Assembly (NCBI GenBank): GCA_016783225.1
Contig: JADHWZ010000151.1
Coordinates: 1 to 5,126, forward strand
Length of the DNA stretch: 5,126 nt
Source of the DNA: Dehalococcoidia bacterium
GTDB lineage: Bacteria; Chloroflexota; Dehalococcoidia; GIF9; UBA5620
Direction of reading: 5' to 3'
The notes under the pieces are model-generated. The model saw only the letters and a list, made by a program, of their open reading frames with translations. It did no database searches and had not been told where the DNA came from. Shown here piece by piece: positions 1-5,126 of this stretch; positions within the stretch are counted from its first letter, which is position 1, and each line of letters opens with the position of its first letter. A program made the position numbers and the translations under genes.

Positions 1-330
1 ACCCTTAACGAATTTGCCAAAAAGTCTAAAGCAGGCATCAGGAGAGAAGAGGAAGAGATACCGGTGCATGACGGTGTGCGAGCTGCCTGTGAGCTTCTTG
101 GGTTCGACCCGCTCTATGTTGCTAACGAAGGCAAGCTGGTGGCTGTAGTTGATTCCCAGGATACCGACCGAATCTTGGCCAGCATGAAGCGAAATCCTCA
201 CGGTGTCGATGCCTGTATCATTGGCGAGGTGACCGAGGAGCGCAGAGGCCGGGTGATAATGAAAACCAGGATGGGGGCTTCGCGCATTGTCGACATGCTC
301 AGCGGGGAACTATTGCCCAGAATATGTTGA
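1..330 (+). CDS. hypE: HypE C-terminal part, [NiFe]-hydrogenase maturation protein (5' end outside window)
   Basis: The reading frame is open from base 1, so this is the last 109 residues of a protein that begins upstream. A GTG at 64 is an internal valine, not the start. HypE dehydrates a carbamoyl group, delivered by HypF to its C-terminal cysteine, into a thiocyanate; this supplies the cyanide ligands of the [NiFe] active site in the cytoplasm. The visible sequence shows the family's conserved C-terminal stretch: IPV near residue 20, CELLGFDPLYVANEGKLV at about 30-47, a GVDACIIGEV segment, TRMGASRIVDMLSGE, and the terminal PRIC with the modified cysteine (codon 325-327) directly before TGA. 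Functional residues are therefore intact in the part seen. HypE is often the last gene of a hyp operon, which fits the 107-bp non-coding gap that follows. The family call is firm; the upstream hyp genes are an inference. Confidence 0.95.
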   Translation, partial: TLNEFAKKSKAGIRREEEEIPVHDGVRAACELLGFDPLYVANEGKLVAVVDSQDTDRILASMKRNPHGVDACIIGEVTEERRGRVIMKTRMGASRIVDMLSGELLPRIC

Positions 331-366
331 CAGGTACAGCCATCAAAGCTCTCTGGCTTAACCTAC

Positions 367-395
367 TTGCCATAATGGCGGTAAAAGTGTAAAAT
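367..395 (+). promoter_or_regulatory. Candidate sigma70-type promoter of the five-gene operon
   Basis: TTGCCA at 367-372 (5 of 6 to TTGACA) and TAAAAT at 390-395 (5 of 6 to TATAAT) are separated by exactly 17 bp. The expected transcription start would be near 402, giving a leader of about 36 bases before the ATG at 438. Position, strand and spacing all fit a promoter for the downstream operon. It is predicted from sequence only. Confidence 0.5.
369..379. repeat. 11-bp perfect inverted repeat overlapping the -35 box
   Basis: GCCAT, one A, then ATGGC forms a perfect dyad. It covers most of the proposed -35 hexamer and runs into the spacer, where a repressor or redox regulator could block polymerase. 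The arms are short, so chance is a real alternative. No known operator consensus is recognised in it. Confidence 0.3.
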
Positions 396-437
396 ATCCG
401 ATTGGCGAAAAAAGGGCTTTAGATAACAAGATCCAAA

Positions 438-1118
438 ATGGTCAGTAGTATTGCGCTCACTCTAAATGGCGAACGAGTAGAAGCCCGGCCTGGCATGACC
501 ATTCTGGATCTGGCTCAAGAAAATGGAATCTCTATTCCCACCCTTTGTTATCATTGTGAACTGACACCTACTGGTGCTTGCCGTCTTTGCGTGGTGGAGG
601 TGGAAGGTTCCCGCACTTTAGTCGCTTCCTGTCATACCCCTGTTGCTCCTAATATGATAATAGAAACACATTCTCCAAAGGTCATCCGTACCCGCAAAAT
701 GATTGTGGAGTTATTGCTGTCTAGCCACCCCGATTTCTGTCTGGTTTGCGACAAAGCTAATGTCTGTGAATTGAGAGCATTGGCTGCTGACCTTGGTGTA
801 GGAATACCACGTTTTAGGACTAAGAAACGCTACTACCCCATAGAGGATGACAATCCTTACGTAATTCGCGACCTTTCCAAATGTGTCCTGTGTTTCCGCT
901 GTGTGAAAGCTTGCCAAGAGATCAAGAAAGAGAACGTCTATGCCGTCGGCTACCGAGGTCATAGCTCTAAGATCATAGTCGATGTTGATGCACCTCTAAA
1001 TAAAGAGGTATGTCGGGAATGCGACGTTTGTGCGTCATTTTGTCCTGTAGGAGCTATCACCTTACAAGGAGAGAGATTCAAGACAATACCCAAGAAGCCA
1101 CTCATAATTAAAGGGTAG
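438..1118 (+). CDS. hoxU: HoxU-like iron-sulfur subunit (N-terminal NuoG-type domains only)
   Basis: This 226-residue soluble protein is the electron-wiring subunit of a diaphorase module. Residues 1-80 are a plant-type [2Fe-2S] ferredoxin domain with ligands C37, C48, C51 and C65. Residues 85-120 form the NuoG/HoxU His-Cys segment, with H97, C101, C104 and C110 for a [4Fe-4S] cluster. Residues 140-210 are a two-cluster ferredoxin with C149/C152/C155/C159 and C192/C195/C198/C202. All ligands for four clusters are present. The length matches HoxU of bidirectional hydrogenases (about 230-240 residues). There is no molybdopterin-like NuoG body and no [FeFe]-hydrogenase H-cluster domain. An in-frame TAG at 420-422 makes ATG 438 the earliest standard start, although no clear Shine-Dalgarno precedes it. 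It is the first gene of the operon. The symbol denotes the family; an actual hydrogenase partner is not shown. Truncated NuoG or HndD-like are alternative names. Confidence 0.9.
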   Translation: MVSSIALTLNGERVEARPGMTILDLAQENGISIPTLCYHCELTPTGACRLCVVEVEGSRTLVASCHTPVAPNMIIETHSPKVIRTRKMIVELLLSSHPDFCLVCDKANVCELRALAADLGVGIPRFRTKKRYYPIEDDNPYVIRDLSKCVLCFRCVKACQEIKKENVYAVGYRGHSSKIIVDVDAPLNKEVCRECDVCASFCPVGAITLQGERFKTIPKKPLIIKG

Positions 1119-1146
1119 GTATTGATGTCGTTAAGAGTAGAAAAGT

Positions 1147-1156
1147 GAGGGGGGAG
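1147..1156 (+). promoter_or_regulatory. Strong purine-rich ribosome binding site of the NuoE-like gene
   Basis: GAGGGGGGAG lies 5 bases before the ATG at 1162 and contrasts with the missing Shine-Dalgarno of the preceding gene. It fixes the start of the NuoE-like subunit. Confidence 0.65.
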
Positions 1157-1161
1157 AAGTA

Positions 1162-1644
1162 ATGAACCAAGCTTTAAAGAAAACTTGTGCTTACTATAAG
1201 AATCGTAATGATTTGCTTTCTTTTGTCAAGAAAGTACAAGAAAAGCATGGGCAGCTTTCTCCAGAAATCATGAAAGATATTGCTTCTCTCTGGGATGTAT
1301 CGGTCGGTGAAATATATGGACTGGTGACTTTCTATTCTTTCCTCAGCACCCAGCCTACGGGACGGAATGTGCTCAAAGTCTGCAAGAGTACGTCTTGCTG
1401 GCTTAGGAATTGTCAGTCGGTCATTAAGACCATGGAGAAGGAGCTTGGTATCAAGCCGGGGCAGACGACAGGTGACAGGAAATTTTCTCTACAACTAGTC
1501 AATTGTATAGGTGCCTGTGACCATACACCAGCTATGATGGTGAACGATGAAGTATGCAGTGGCCTCACGCCAGAGAAAGTCAAGACGATATTGAGGAAAT
1601 GCGATACACAGCATACTAGCTCTGTAGAACACTCTTCTAGCTGA
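1162..1644 (+). CDS. nuoE: NuoE/HoxE-like thioredoxin-fold [2Fe-2S] subunit
   Basis: This 160-residue protein is the 24-kDa-type partner of the NuoF flavoprotein, in which a thioredoxin-like fold binds one [2Fe-2S] cluster. The N-terminal helical part (about 1-65) includes the conserved signature around residues 48-60 (VGEIYGLVTFYSF). The cluster ligands are C74 and C79 (CKSTSC, Cx4C) and C115 and C119 (CIGAC, Cx3C), the family spacing. Length is normal for NuoE/HoxE (about 155-175). The last dozen residues after the cysteine at about 147 form a Ser/Thr/His-rich tail that looks non-structural. It follows the HoxU-like gene by 43 bp and precedes the NuoF-like gene by 12 bp, so the three diaphorase subunits are co-transcribed. 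In the family this cluster sits next to FMN and is often considered off the main electron path. NuoE versus HoxE naming cannot be settled from the sequence. Confidence 0.94.
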   Translation: MNQALKKTCAYYKNRNDLLSFVKKVQEKHGQLSPEIMKDIASLWDVSVGEIYGLVTFYSFLSTQPTGRNVLKVCKSTSCWLRNCQSVIKTMEKELGIKPGQTTGDRKFSLQLVNCIGACDHTPAMMVNDEVCSGLTPEKVKTILRKCDTQHTSSVEHSSS

Positions 1645-1656
1645 AGGAAAATTGTC

Positions 1657-2868
1657 ATGCCGGAGAAACAGATTGTCCTGAATAACTGCGGATTCGTCGA
1701 TCCCGGGGATATAAACACATACCTGGCTAGAGATGGTTTTAAGGCTCTAGACAAAGCCTGGAAGCAAATGACACCGCAGCAGGTAGTGGAAGAGGTGAAG
1801 GAATCGGGTCTAAGGGGACGAGGAGGTGCGGGATTCCCTACTGGACTCAAGTGGGAACTGACGAGCAAATCTCCAGAGCAGGAGAGGTTTGTTATCTGCA
1901 ATGCTGATGAGGGAGAGGTCGGCACCTTTAAGGATAGATACATTATCCAAGGAGACCCCTTTGAGATTGTTGAAGGTATTGCCATTGCTGGCTATGCCAT
2001 AGAGGCGGAGAGAGGATACATTTACTTGCGGGCAGAGTATCATTATCTTCGAGATTTGCTGGAGAATGCTATTGAACAGGCTAGGAATCGGGGCTTTCTG
2101 AAGAAGAGAAATGGTACCCCGTTTGATATTGAGGTTCGGGAAGGGGCAGGTGCCTACATATGTGGTGAGGAGTCCGCTCTAATGGAGTCAATAGAGGGGA
2201 AACGAGGGGAAGTACGTTTCCGACCTCCTTTCCCACCTGACCAAGGATTATGGCAAAGGCCAACGGTCATCAATAATGTGGAGACTTTAGCAAATATCTC
2301 TCACATCATCCTCAATGGAGCTCACTGGTTCAGACAGATAGGGACCGAGCAGAGCAAAGGCACCAAAGTCTTCTCAGTATCGGGCGATGTAGAAAAGCCA
2401 GGCGTATACGAGCTAACGATGGGCAGCCCTGTGACTGAGCTGGTAGAGACGCTAGCTCAGGCAAAGAGTGTCAAAGCAGTGCAGGTAGGTGGAGCCTCAG
2501 GAAGGCTATTACCTGCTGAAAAGTTGGATACCCCGCTTGCCTTTGAAGGAATCTTGGGAGCTGGCGCTGTTTTGGTGTTCAGTAGGGACAGAGATATCAT
2601 AGAGATGGTGTGGAAAAACATGGAATTTTTTGCTGAGGAGTGCTGTGGAAAGTGTGTCCCTTGCCGGGAGGGAACTCAAGTGATGTGTGATATCTTGGAG
2701 CGGATTTCTCAGGCGCAGGGTGCTGAGGAGGATTTGACAATATTAGACGAGCTTGCCAATACCATGATGCTGGCGTCTTTATGTGGTCTGGGGCAGGCTG
2801 CACCGAATTCCGTGGTTGATAGCGTACTGTATTTCAGAGATGAATATGAAGCAAGAATTGGGAAATAG
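1657..2868 (+). CDS. nuoF: NuoF/HoxF-like FMN- and NADH-binding flavoprotein subunit
   Basis: This 403-residue protein is the predicted NADH-oxidising subunit. The flavin and dinucleotide site is seen in GLRGRGGAGFPTGLKW (51-66), CNADEGEVGTFKDR (81-94) and GAGAYICGEESAL (163-175), followed by the RPPFPPDQGLW loop (189-199) and INNVETLANI (205-214). An SLBB domain starts near 237. The C-terminal helical domain carries the [4Fe-4S] ligands C330, C333, C336 (CGKCVPCREGT) and C376. The acidic residues of the nucleotide pocket (E85, E87, E171, E172) are retained, which by family knowledge favours NADH over NADPH. Oddities: valine 88 replaces the usual proline of EPGT, and an extra cysteine (C329) sits where serine is usual. 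The length equals a core NuoF: no N-terminal [2Fe-2S] and no C-terminal ferredoxin domain, unlike HydB/HndC of bifurcating hydrogenases. AAGGAA at 1644-1649 is the ribosome site. Next gene, metV, follows after 18 bp. Confidence 0.95.
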   Translation: MPEKQIVLNNCGFVDPGDINTYLARDGFKALDKAWKQMTPQQVVEEVKESGLRGRGGAGFPTGLKWELTSKSPEQERFVICNADEGEVGTFKDRYIIQGDPFEIVEGIAIAGYAIEAERGYIYLRAEYHYLRDLLENAIEQARNRGFLKKRNGTPFDIEVREGAGAYICGEESALMESIEGKRGEVRFRPPFPPDQGLWQRPTVINNVETLANISHIILNGAHWFRQIGTEQSKGTKVFSVSGDVEKPGVYELTMGSPVTELVETLAQAKSVKAVQVGGASGRLLPAEKLDTPLAFEGILGAGAVLVFSRDRDIIEMVWKNMEFFAEECCGKCVPCREGTQVMCDILERISQAQGAEEDLTILDELANTMMLASLCGLGQAAPNSVVDSVLYFRDEYEARIGK

Positions 2869-2886
2869 TCTGAGGGGAATTGCAAT

Positions 2887-3552
2887 ATGTATACCATTAC
2901 CAAACAGAAGGTCCTTGAAGAAATAGAACAAAGCTTGGAAGGCAAGAAGAGGGTGTACATTGTAGGATGTGGTACCTGCGCTACAATGTGCCATACAGGC
3001 GGCAAGGCAGAGGTTCTCGAAATGAAGCAGAAACTAGAGGAAATGGACAAGATAGTCACTGGCTGGATGGTCATACCTACAGCCTGTGATAGCCTGACCA
3101 AGGAAGCTTTAGCCGAGGAAGCCGAAGCTATTAGTAAGGCAGATGCACTGTTAGTTATGACCTGTGCTTTCGGTGTTCAAATGGTAACCAGGTATGGCAA
3201 CAGAGTCGTTATTCCAGCGCTAGACACGTTGTTCCTGGGTATGGAGGATTTACCGGGCAGCTTCTCTGAAGTCTGTACCCAATGCGGAGATTGCGTCCTT
3301 GCCTGGACAGGCGGGATCTGTCCTGTTACTGCTTGTCCCAAGGGTTTACTTGATGGTCCCTGTGGTGGCAGCAAAGAAGGAAAATGTGAGGTCGATCCCT
3401 CGAAAGACTGTGCTTGGGTGCTTATTTATCAGAAGTTGAAAAGTGAAGGTAGGCTGGATGAAATGCGCAAATACCGAGGCCCCAAGAATTATCTCTTGAT
3501 GACCAGACCGAGGAAATATGTGTGTTACGAAAAAACTGCGGAAGATCTGTGA
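2887..3552 (+). CDS. metV: MetV, cysteine-rich partner subunit of methylenetetrahydrofolate reductase
   Basis: This 221-residue protein matches the MetV / methylenetetrahydrofolate reductase C-terminal (zinc-finger-like) family, the obligate partner of short MetF proteins in acetogens and other Wood-Ljungdahl bacteria. The N-terminal half (about 20-125) has C28, C31 and C35 (CGTCATMC), then C67 and C93, all at strand ends, consistent with an iron-sulfur site. The C-terminal half begins with C130, C133 and C136 and contains the family core at 144-161 (CPVTACPKGLLDGPCGG), then C167 and C175, ending with a basic RGPKNYLLMTRPRKYV segment. Known MetV proteins relay electrons through iron-sulfur clusters to the MetF flavin; which of the 13 cysteines up to residue 175 bind clusters or zinc cannot be told here. 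GAGGGG at 2872-2877 is a well-placed ribosome site. It lies between the NADH-module subunit and metF, exactly where a physical link between them would be needed. Confidence 0.9.
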   Translation: MYTITKQKVLEEIEQSLEGKKRVYIVGCGTCATMCHTGGKAEVLEMKQKLEEMDKIVTGWMVIPTACDSLTKEALAEEAEAISKADALLVMTCAFGVQMVTRYGNRVVIPALDTLFLGMEDLPGSFSEVCTQCGDCVLAWTGGICPVTACPKGLLDGPCGGSKEGKCEVDPSKDCAWVLIYQKLKSEGRLDEMRKYRGPKNYLLMTRPRKYVCYEKTAEDL

Positions 3553-3554
3553 GT

Positions 3555-3561
3555 GAGGAGG
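3555..3561 (+). promoter_or_regulatory. Ribosome binding site that decides the metF start
   Basis: GAGGAGG just after the metV stop lies 11 bases before ATG 3573. The frame stays open upstream to a GTG at 3522 inside metV, but that start would lack a Shine-Dalgarno and add 17 residues not matching the family. This site supports ATG 3573. Confidence 0.65.
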
Positions 3562-3572
3562 AAACTAGTCCA

Positions 3573-4442
3573 ATGCCTAAACTGAGGGAAGCTGTCCAAT
3601 CCGGGAAATTTGTGGTCACTGCTGAAATCGGTCCAGCTAAAGGTGTGGATGTCACCGAGTTCCTGGAGAATGCCGAATTACTAAGAGGCAGAGTAGATGC
3701 GGTCAATATCACCGACCAGCAGAGCGCCGTAATGAGGCTAGGCTCTTTGGCTGGCTGCCATTTACTCAACGAAAAAGGCGTGGAGCCTGTGTTCCAGATG
3801 ACCTGCCGTGACCGTAACCGCATTGCCTTACAATCCGACCTGCTTAATGCTTATGTTCTCGGTATTGAGAATGTTCTTTGTCTCACTGGTGATTATGTTA
3901 CCTTGGGAGACCATCCGCAGGCTAAGCCTGTCTTTGACCTCGATTCTGTTTCCTTACTCCAAGCTGCCCGAGAACTGGAGCAGGGTAGGGACTTAGCTGG
4001 CAAGGAACTGAAAGGTGCTCCTAAGTTCTTCCTCGGGGCCTGTGTAACTCCTGGGGCTGATCCTGTAGAACCGCAGTTAATCAAAATGGAGAAGAAGGTC
4101 AAAGCTGGCGCCGAATTCTTCCAAACCCAGGCCATTTACGAACCCAAGAAGTTCGAAGCCTTTATGCAGGAAGCTAAGAAATTTAGCGTGCCCGTGCTCG
4201 TCGGCATAGTCTTAATCAGGTCAGCAGCTATGGCTCGGTTTATGAATAAGAACGTTGCTGGCATTCACGTCCCTGATGAGATTATTGACGAGATGGACGA
4301 AGCTGAGAATAAGGCTCAAAAGAGCATCGAGATAGCTGCCCGTCTGATTAGTGAAATGAAGGGCATGTGCCAGGGGGCCCACATTATGGCTATTGGCCTG
4401 GAGTCCAGGGTGCCAGCGGTTCTGGATGCCGCTGGATTGTAA
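3573..4442 (+). CDS. metF: MetF, methylenetetrahydrofolate reductase catalytic subunit (MetVF type)
   Basis: This 289-residue flavoprotein reduces 5,10-methylene-tetrahydrofolate to 5-methyl-tetrahydrofolate, the last folate step of the methyl branch of the Wood-Ljungdahl pathway, or the reverse in oxidising organisms. It is a TIM barrel. The proposed catalytic glutamate is E18 in TAEIGP; NITDQQS (45-51), LTGD with D107 (equivalent of the flavin/folate-site aspartate of E. coli MetF), GDHPQAKPVFDLDS (112-125), CVTPGADP (157-164) and FFQTQAIY with Q186 (folate-site glutamine) follow in family order. The length fits MetF that works with a separate MetV; there is no C-terminal regulatory domain as in eukaryotic enzymes. 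The start at 3573 is chosen from the ribosome site and family alignment; GTG 3522 is the alternative. As the last gene of the operon behind a complete NADH diaphorase, it probably receives electrons through MetV rather than binding NADH itself (inference). Confidence 0.93.
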   Translation: MPKLREAVQSGKFVVTAEIGPAKGVDVTEFLENAELLRGRVDAVNITDQQSAVMRLGSLAGCHLLNEKGVEPVFQMTCRDRNRIALQSDLLNAYVLGIENVLCLTGDYVTLGDHPQAKPVFDLDSVSLLQAARELEQGRDLAGKELKGAPKFFLGACVTPGADPVEPQLIKMEKKVKAGAEFFQTQAIYEPKKFEAFMQEAKKFSVPVLVGIVLIRSAAMARFMNKNVAGIHVPDEIIDEMDEAENKAQKSIEIAARLISEMKGMCQGAHIMAIGLESRVPAVLDAAGL

Positions 4443-4476
4443 CTGACCTGACCCGCGGCAACAACCCGGTCTATCC
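4443..4476. other. Convergent 34-bp spacer between metF and the glutamate synthase-like gene
   Basis: The stops of the two opposing genes lie 34 bp apart. I see only weak pairing (GACC at 4445-4448 with GGTC at 4468-4471, and a CCGCGG palindrome at 4453-4458) and no T tract on either strand, so no rho-independent terminator can be called. Confidence 0.4.
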
Positions 4477-5126
4477 TTAAGCCAGAACTCTGTCTACCTC
4501 TTGGTTGTCGGCGTCCATTACATAGGTTATGCCGGAGACCTCAGCTGCCTCAGGGGTGAGTGCCACGATATCATCCCTGTCAATGAATTTGAGAGCGAAT
4601 TTCCGACTTCCAGCCATGAGCTGGCGTAGACCTTGAGCAAGCCGCTCGTAATAAGTGTAGAGCCCAATAGCCGACGTTGGAATCTTCCCATAATCTTTGC
4701 CATACTCTCGCTTCAGCTCCTCAGCAGTGACGAAGATAGCTTCCCTCGTTCCGCCAAATCGCTGCAGGTAAATAGGGAGTTGCCCGCCATCTATCGATTC
4801 GCCGATAGTCTTGCCAACCATGACCGCAGCTAGAGGTGCTCTCGCCATTCCTATTGCTTTCGCATAAGGCGCGCATAGTGCCAATCCCTTGAACAACTGG
4901 TCTTCCAAAATGAAACCGCCTGCAAGTATTATGTCAGGCACATACTCCCCCTTCTTAGCAAGGCGCTCACAGTACTTATGAAGCAATGACCATAGTTCGA
5001 CGCCAGGCACGCCCCACTCGTTCATCATGCGCCAGGGGCTCATGCCGGTACCACCGCCCGCACCATCAACGGTGAGATAGTCGATTTTTGCAAGGGAGGA
5101 GAACTTGACCGCGCGGGCAAGGTCTG
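4477..5126 (-). CDS. FMN-binding glutamate synthase-family protein, C-terminal part (5' end outside window)
   Basis: The frame runs off the right edge of the window; 215 residues of the C-terminal part are visible. The ATG at 5043 lies inside the conserved motif and is not the true start. Near visible residues 15-30 the barrel signature DYLTVDGAGGGTGMSP is seen, followed by an IILAGGF strand and AIGMARAPLAAVMVGKTIG, the order of the FMN/2-oxoglutarate barrel of GltB. The remaining tail, including LRQLMAGSRKFALKFIDRD, resembles standalone glutamate synthase-family proteins of anaerobes. The region after IGMARAPL normally carries the GltB [3Fe-4S] motif (a Cys-x5-Cys-His-x3-Cys-Pro pattern); no such cysteines occur here, with only two cysteines in the whole visible part. 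It may thus be a flavin oxidoreductase of another specificity, so I give no gene symbol. It is convergent with metF and has its own transcription unit. Substrate unknown; family call is good. Confidence 0.85.
   Translation of the reverse strand, partial: DLARAVKFSSLAKIDYLTVDGAGGGTGMSPWRMMNEWGVPGVELWSLLHKYCERLAKKGEYVPDIILAGGFILEDQLFKGLALCAPYAKAIGMARAPLAAVMVGKTIGESIDGGQLPIYLQRFGGTREAIFVTAEELKREYGKDYGKIPTSAIGLYTYYERLAQGLRQLMAGSRKFALKFIDRDDIVALTPEAAEVSGITYVMDADNQEVDRVLA

Follow-up and report, generated by a model that had tools for sequence, protein, structure and literature searches.

An NADH-oxidising trio upstream of metVF points to a candidate five-subunit methylenetetrahydrofolate reductase in uncultured Chloroflexota

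Results

A five-gene operon joins a complex I-type NADH module to MetVF

We analysed a 5,126-nucleotide stretch of DNA from a Dehalococcoidia bacterium (contig JADHWZ010000151.1, positions 1 to 5,126; hereafter the window), in which HoxU-, NuoE- and NuoF-like genes run into metV and metF, the genes of a MetVF-type methylenetetrahydrofolate reductase (MTHFR). The five open reading frames (ORFs), with lengths in amino acids (aa), are as follows.

438..1118, + strand: HoxU-like iron-sulfur relay, 226 aa (Fer2_4, NADH-G_4Fe-4S_3, Fer4_Nqo3; Pfam/NCBIfam)
1162..1644, + strand: NuoE-like thioredoxin-fold [2Fe-2S] protein, 160 aa (2Fe-2S_thioredx)
1657..2868, + strand: short NuoF-like NADH/flavin mononucleotide (FMN)/[4Fe-4S] subunit, 403 aa (Complex1_51K, SLBB, NADH_4Fe-4S)
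2887..3552, + strand: MetV, 221 aa, proposed to dock the NADH trio and relay its electrons to MetF (DUF5981; PF12225, E 5.7e-36)
3573..4442, + strand: MetF, MTHFR catalytic subunit, 289 aa (PF02219, E 1e-37)

The spacers measure 43, 12, 18 and 20 base pairs (bp), and both the ORFs and the domains bear out the order and common strand described in an earlier note on this DNA. We refer to the HoxU-like, NuoE and short NuoF proteins together as the trio. As that note also stated, no hydrogenase structural gene lies between the five; neither a small nor a large hydrogenase subunit gene was found among the window genes in the ORF list or the domain scan, which sets the operon apart from a HoxEFUYH hydrogenase. 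The metV and metF genes are adjacent (20 bp apart), both full length and both above the PF12225 and PF02219 cut-offs, as in MetVF-type enzymes, and MetF also remotely matches solved MTHFRs. Its best start is the ATG at 3573, preceded by AGGAGG at 3556-3561; the ORF list places the start upstream, at a GTG at 3522 that overlaps MetV.

The HoxU-like protein stops after its ferredoxin domain and is without a catalytic domain. It matches at most about the first third of NuoG models, and no other nuo gene lies in the window, which distinguishes the trio from the NADH module of complex I. The window NuoF is limited to its three listed domains, without a thioredoxin or ferredoxin extension; at 403 aa it therefore does not have the thioredoxin-like plus ferredoxin-type or GltD domains of electron-bifurcating HydB/HylB proteins. 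It scores 459 bits against nuoF_fam versus 48 bits against rnfC, and the window has no RnfC2 gene, so that the operon does not fall within the rnfC2-containing Type III enzymes.

Four MTHFR types have been named, MetF, MetVF, MetVF-RnfC2 and Hdr-MvhD-MetVF (PMC8760232, PMC9430772). The Type III enzyme of Acetobacterium woodii, MetVF-RnfC2 (PMC8760232), resembles the window operon in having a MetVF core and an adjacent dedicated NADH-oxidising partner, but that partner is one RnfC-like protein, whereas the window encodes a three-protein complex I-type module; here, NADH-dependent activity, with NADH as the donor via a dedicated partner subunit, is predicted from sequence. The Type IV enzyme of Moorella and Sporomusa, HdrABC-MvhD-MetVF (PMC8760232, PMC9430772), likewise joins a MetVF core to a multi-subunit input module in one cluster, but the module and the proposed mechanism differ; neither HdrABC nor MvhD occurs among the window genes, the window showing little flank. 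For unFirm_1, a cluster has been reported in which a formate dehydrogenase has nuoE, nuoF and another metVF pair close by, with products seen in a metaproteome; the arrangement was interpreted as a link from the first step to the last (PMC5080403). The likeness is the NuoE/NuoF-type NADH module beside MetVF. The formate dehydrogenase-NuoEF-MetVF relatives in our own analysis differ from the window by a long NuoF and by the fusion of the HoxU-like domain with a molybdopterin domain. In 'Ca. Contubernalis alkaliaceticus' a NiFe hydrogenase is co-located with MetF (PMC10608574); this arrangement and our hydS-hydL-MetVF loci have their own upstream electron module, but one that handles hydrogen instead of NADH. 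In Sporomusa, stn genes lie downstream of metVF (PMC7483475). Solved NAD-linked hydrogenases of the HydABC and HydABCSL types have homologous NuoF, NuoE and HoxU-like domains, whereas the window HoxU is without their catalytic domain, its NuoF without their extensions, and its FMN loop is complex I-like. A literature search that covered few subscription journals, and papers in part, found no report of a trio-MetVF operon or of module exchange. What appears new in the window is the trio-MetVF form of these enzymes; gene neighbourhoods of the formate dehydrogenase-NuoEF-MetVF kind and of the hydrogenase-MetF kind have been published before (PMC5080403, PMC10608574).

The trio-MetV order recurs in divergent genomes

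A first scan of relatives of the window MetV, taking one genome per species, gave 95 confirmed stretches, from which 80 loci were kept. A complete trio lies directly upstream of MetV in six of these (L001, L002, L012, L015, L027 and L035); a seventh candidate, L008, begins inside NuoF. The second scan covered 393 genomes of the class containing the genome of L035 (a Dehalococcoidia bacterium), where a MetV relative is present in 143, and the surroundings of many better MetV matches were fetched. Upstream partners were then labelled for 201 non-redundant MetVs, window included, leaving out rows shorter than 190 aa and trio locus L149, which has a TAG inside MetV. The partner is a formate dehydrogenase/NuoEF complex in 101, a NiFe hydrogenase in 23, the trio in 20, a GltD-like protein in 8 and something else in 38, with 11 cut by contig ends; sampling was seeded from the window MetV, so these counts are not natural frequencies. 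The synteny that the earlier note proposed to look for extends well beyond this contig, and chance adjacency of the five genes was rejected since the order recurs in divergent genomes.

The class of L035 accounts for 16 of the 20 trio rows. The other four are the window, L002 (a Thermodesulfovibrionales metagenome-assembled genome), L116 (Dehalococcoidales, same genome as L008) and L027 (deposited as Deltaproteobacteria); L015 was deposited as Deltaproteobacteria too, yet its genome falls in the class of L035. Among 230 genomes of the class to which the L002 genome (G002) belongs, only G002 has a MetV match scoring like trio MetVs (67%; the next by score reaches 47%), and its trio locus may have arrived by transfer or stem from faulty binning.

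For the other 19 trio loci with a label, tblastn found no NiFe hydrogenase gene in the fetched stretches, which span ~1 to 21 kilobases (kb). The idea that the trio is part of a NiFe hydrogenase was rejected, no such gene adjoining it in these stretches, and the earlier note's expectation that hydrogenase large and small genes would not consistently accompany the trio holds over the same range.

All 21 trio genomes tested carry both the acetyl-CoA synthase domain CdhC and formyl-tetrahydrofolate (THF) synthetase. CdhC occurs in 146 of the 393 genomes of the class of L035 and MetV itself accompanies the pathway, so this gives the setting and does not test the trio. Genes for 5-formyl-THF cyclo-ligase (MTHFS), FolE and FolD stand immediately before the trio in L002. 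The same locus has a second, divergent MetV-MetF pair (L002:11646-15080) after genes that by eye resemble response regulators and a sensor; L012 and L015 have similar-looking genes in the vicinity of their trio.

Ligand motifs are consistent with a relay from NADH to MetV

The motifs for the HoxU clusters, namely [2Fe-2S], His-Cys3 [4Fe-4S] and two further [4Fe-4S], are present in 19 of 19 trio HoxUs, and the NuoF [4Fe-4S] motif at the same 19 loci, the 20th (L116) being cut. The NuoE motif is found in all 18 trio NuoEs, L191 having no NuoE. The chain from FMN to iron-sulfur clusters that the earlier note predicted is thus supported by intact ligand motifs at every trio locus long enough to show them.

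The FMN loop of trio NuoFs reads GE(V/M)GTFKD in 16 of 19 and GEVGAFKDR in the other three (GEVGTFKDR in the window), and is complex I-like, resembling EPGTYKDR of E. coli NuoF. All 96 long HylB-type frames in which the loop pattern occurs have DPGAFM(D/N)R, some loci being counted twice, and the five solved chains shown read likewise. That the type of FMN loop marks bifurcation is our inference. We propose plain NADH oxidation because the loop is complex I-like and the NuoF extensions are missing, a combination that suggests, on sequence grounds, simple chemistry.

In favour of an enzyme that bifurcates, with NADH reducing methylene-THF and ferredoxin together, NuoF is closest by sequence among solved structures to HydB-type subunits, one of which its depositors named electron bifurcating; bifurcation has also been proposed for the Hdr-type enzyme (PMC8760232). 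Against it stand the short NuoF without the thioredoxin-like and ferredoxin extensions of its long relatives, the complex I-like FMN loop (as far as our loop-bifurcation link holds), and the A. woodii NADH enzyme, which is non-bifurcating (PMC8760232). We regard bifurcation here as very unlikely.

MetV, the next step of the predicted path, has 12 cysteines that are invariant in a 26-row alignment (C28, C31, C67, C93, C130, C133, C136, C145, C150, C159, C167 and C175). No sequence relative of MetV was found among solved structures. An AlphaFold2 model from the 26 rows has a mean predicted local distance difference test (pLDDT) score of 81.5, with residues 119-129 and the C-terminal tail poor, and has no match in the PDB at E <= 0.001.

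MetV also adjoins formate dehydrogenase and hydrogenase modules

The commonest MetV neighbour is a complex of formate dehydrogenase type (for example L033:3432-9982, L010 and L050), made of a formate-dehydrogenase-like molybdopterin protein of ~890-925 aa (729 in L050) with N-terminal HoxU-like domains, a NuoE and a long NuoF. This NuoF spans ~600 to 1100 aa and, in the four long relatives scanned, carries thioredoxin-like plus ferredoxin or GltD extensions; often it appears as a NuoF-GltD fusion of ~1040 aa. The 101 rows of this type were labelled by the extended NuoF adjoining MetV. Of these rows, 78 show a formate-dehydrogenase-like gene further upstream and the remaining 23 are truncated; in L196, one of the truncated loci, a HoxU fragment reaches NuoE with no such gene between. 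Many of these clusters show an extra MetF-like protein (33-37% identical to the window MetF) just upstream of the formate-dehydrogenase-like gene, as at L010:2729-3604, L033:2515-3396 and L050:952-1830. Five genomes (G005, G033, G166, G306 and G325) each have one trio locus and one locus of formate dehydrogenase type.

Hydrogenase-type loci consist of a small and a large subunit gene, usually a protease gene, and then MetV (L215, L217, L218, L219, L220, L223, L245 and L075-L079 are examples); both subunits are seen in 20 of the 23 rows and the large subunit alone in three. The subunits of L220 are of NiFeSe type by NCBIfam, and no signal peptide was seen on its small subunit. We consider these loci candidates for a hydrogen-linked methylene-THF reductase.

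MetV, more than MetF, follows the upstream partner

We compared how partner labels fall on the MetV and MetF trees for one shared set of 121 rows in which MetF adjoins MetV, in four partner groups for which at least 3 changes are needed. The MetV tree requires 4 partner changes (shuffled mean 37) and the MetF tree 11; taken singly, the trio needs 8 changes on the MetF tree and the hydrogenase group 7. Holding the trio MetFs as one clade costs 671 log-likelihood units and is rejected (p 1.17e-37). The same constraint on the trio MetVs is not rejected (p 0.64) and improves on the free quick tree by 9 units; that quick tree, needing 2 changes with 121 rows and 4 or 5 with 201, does not itself show the trio MetVs as a clade.

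Single loci tell a similar story. The window MetF shares 85% and 83% identity with the MetFs of two hydrogenase loci, L217 and L220, versus 71% with the best trio MetF, and groups among hydrogenase-linked MetFs; the window MetV does not, being 64-65% identical to trio and formate dehydrogenase MetVs versus 50% to hydrogenase MetVs. In L156 the MetF is 90% identical to that of a hydrogenase locus, and the MetV 69% identical to a trio MetV and 47% to the best hydrogenase MetV. The MetVs of the trio group and of the formate dehydrogenase group resemble one another closely, and the sharp split lies between those two and the hydrogenase MetVs. Across 11 complete trio loci, MetV distances correlate with those of HoxU, NuoE and NuoF at 0.74, 0.65 and 0.80, and MetF distances at 0.20, 0.18 and 0.34. 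MetV thus evolves with the upstream module more than MetF does.

Two modules occupy one chromosomal locus

The order NadE-RecA-RecX-hydS-hydL-protease-MetV-MetF-UbiA is found in L215, and in L175 the same NadE-RecA-RecX and UbiA flanks enclose the trio instead of the hydrogenase. L191, whose contig ends in RecA, and L181, whose contig ends in MetF, match the arrangement of L175 as far as the contigs reach. The position that the trio takes in three genomes is thus filled by a hydrogenase in one.

The window itself has the following features around the operon.

1..330, + strand: C-terminus of HypE (NiFe-hydrogenase maturation factor), partial flanking gene (TIGR02124 hypE, E 5.8e-39)
367..395, + strand: weak match to a sigma-70-like promoter in the gap from hypE to the trio (TTGCCA-17-TAAAAT, 10/12), which may be chance
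4477..5124, - strand: convergent glutamate-synthase-domain gene, partial, outside the operon (PF01645, E 5e-5)

The HypE gene, which went unmentioned in the earlier note, ends 107 bp upstream of HoxU. In L218, L220 and L265 the order is HypD-HypE-hydS-hydL-MetV, whereas in the window the trio follows HypE; the window HypE is 71% and 68% identical to the HypE upstream of hydS-hydL-metVF in L218/L220. The window would thus fit module exchange at a locus of hydrogenase-MetVF type, judging from one shared gene, HypE. The promoter scan returned 8 sites in the window versus 5.0 expected in shuffles (standard deviation 2.2). The best matches of the window NuoF and HoxU, at 99% and 98% identity, come from contigs no longer than 2.5 and 2.9 kb; short NuoF relatives are numerous.

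Is the trio dedicated to MetVF?

A reverse search with NuoF in the same 393 genomes gave 24 matches at E <= 1e-130, of which 22 are in short frames (397-532 aa). MetV adjoins 18 of these short NuoFs (one, L294, is cut), one lies at a contig end, and at three (L291, L292 and L293) the trio is followed by a molybdenum hydroxylase of the xanthine dehydrogenase family, the same protein in all three. The idea of a trio exclusively dedicated to MetVF was rejected on account of these three.

They lend weight to the view that the trio is a general NADH module, serving complex I, a hydrogenase or other oxidoreductases and merely co-transcribed with a MetVF that uses ferredoxin. The same view gains from HypE upstream of the trio in the window, from the other NuoE-HylB complex upstream at three trio loci, from the reduced ferredoxin accepted by characterised MetVF pairs (PMC8760232), and from genome G007, where complex I genes have no NuoEFG alongside and the trio could be the missing NADH module. 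That complex I cluster, however, has a 636 aa NuoI-GltD-like fusion of its own (L276:3911-5821, - strand), a possible entry for NAD(P)H. As for a hydrogenase, its large subunit (PF00374) is above the cut-off in four of seven trio genomes, but no HoxFU-like gene was seen in the 3-4 kb read around two of them (L081 and L082). Since, in addition, MetV follows the partner more closely than MetF, adjoins 18 of the 22 short NuoFs and sits behind a trio that takes the hydrogenase position at a shared locus, we judge a general module unlikely, though more probable than bifurcation.

Several further observations weigh against a five-subunit NADH enzyme. MetF does not lie within 300 bp downstream in 6 of the 20 labelled trio loci, and L191 has no NuoE gene between HoxU and NuoF. 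The second NuoE-HylB complex stands directly upstream of the trio in L012, L015 and L027 and might be its preferred neighbour there. In L175, L181 and L191, which stand for the trio in the comparison of two modules at one locus, the aspartate of the NuoF NADE motif is replaced by Ser or Ala (NASE/NAAE), and the NADH site may differ. Recurrence inside one class partly reflects shared descent. MetF follows the formate dehydrogenase group too, with just 2 changes on its tree, and MetV and MetF distances themselves correlate at 0.65 over the 11 trio loci. From published work, the acceptance of reduced ferredoxin by characterised pairs (PMC8760232) points the same way, as does Sporomusa MetVF, which was not co-purified with its Hdr neighbours although pull-downs showed contact (PMC9430772).

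The earlier note's proposal that an NADH module is the partner of MetVF is supported at sequence level, by synteny beyond this contig, by the lack of NiFe hydrogenase genes in the stretches searched, by intact ligand motifs and by the joint evolution of MetV with the upstream module. It has to be corrected in that the trio also stands by a molybdenum hydroxylase and, at three loci, behind a second NuoE-HylB complex. The wider story would be one of exchange of input modules.

Discussion

Taken together, the operon probably encodes a soluble, likely non-bifurcating five-subunit NADH:methylene-THF oxidoreductase, in which MetV would dock the donor module; we hold this with reasonable confidence. 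The physical complex, the electron path, its direction and the NADH specificity are what we infer. In the proposed mechanism, NADH would reduce the FMN of the short NuoF, from which single electrons would pass through the NuoF [4Fe-4S] cluster to the HoxU clusters, NuoE keeping a side [2Fe-2S] cluster. The HoxU clusters would hand them to the MetV clusters and these to the MetF flavin, which would supply the Wood-Ljungdahl pathway with methyl-THF by reducing methylene-THF. MetV would be the docking piece specific to the input module and MetF the exchangeable catalytic end, and the chemistry would most likely be simple NADH oxidation and not electron bifurcation.

The enzyme could instead run mainly backwards, oxidising methyl-THF and making NADH during methyl-group or acetate oxidation. 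The estimate for this reverse step uses a potential of -320 mV. Passing from -200 mV (PMC9430772) to -320 mV is uphill by ~23 kJ/mol at standard state, although Sporomusa MetVF does reduce viologen with methyl-THF too (PMC9430772). A mainly reversed enzyme is, to our mind, the least probable of the readings considered.

More broadly, MetVF reductases may form an interchangeable family. MetV would be a donor-specific adaptor travelling with the NADH trio, formate dehydrogenase-NuoEF or NiFe hydrogenase, and MetF would be recruited locally; one chromosomal locus would switch between hydrogen- and NADH-driven reduction by exchanging that unit, and some cells would keep several donor-specific isoenzymes. 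We advance this tentatively, with about as much doubt as belief.

The energy that Wood-Ljungdahl organisms can save depends on the electron donor of methylene-THF reductase; for MetVF enzymes that donor is under dispute. For uncultured Chloroflexota, a dedicated NADH module leads one to expect a defined donor without bifurcation, and the relatives linked to a hydrogenase or a formate dehydrogenase turn donor choice into a testable property of MetV. If MetV is indeed a plug adaptor, these loci would be natural chimaeras for studying and engineering the routing of electrons into the methyl branch of acetogens.

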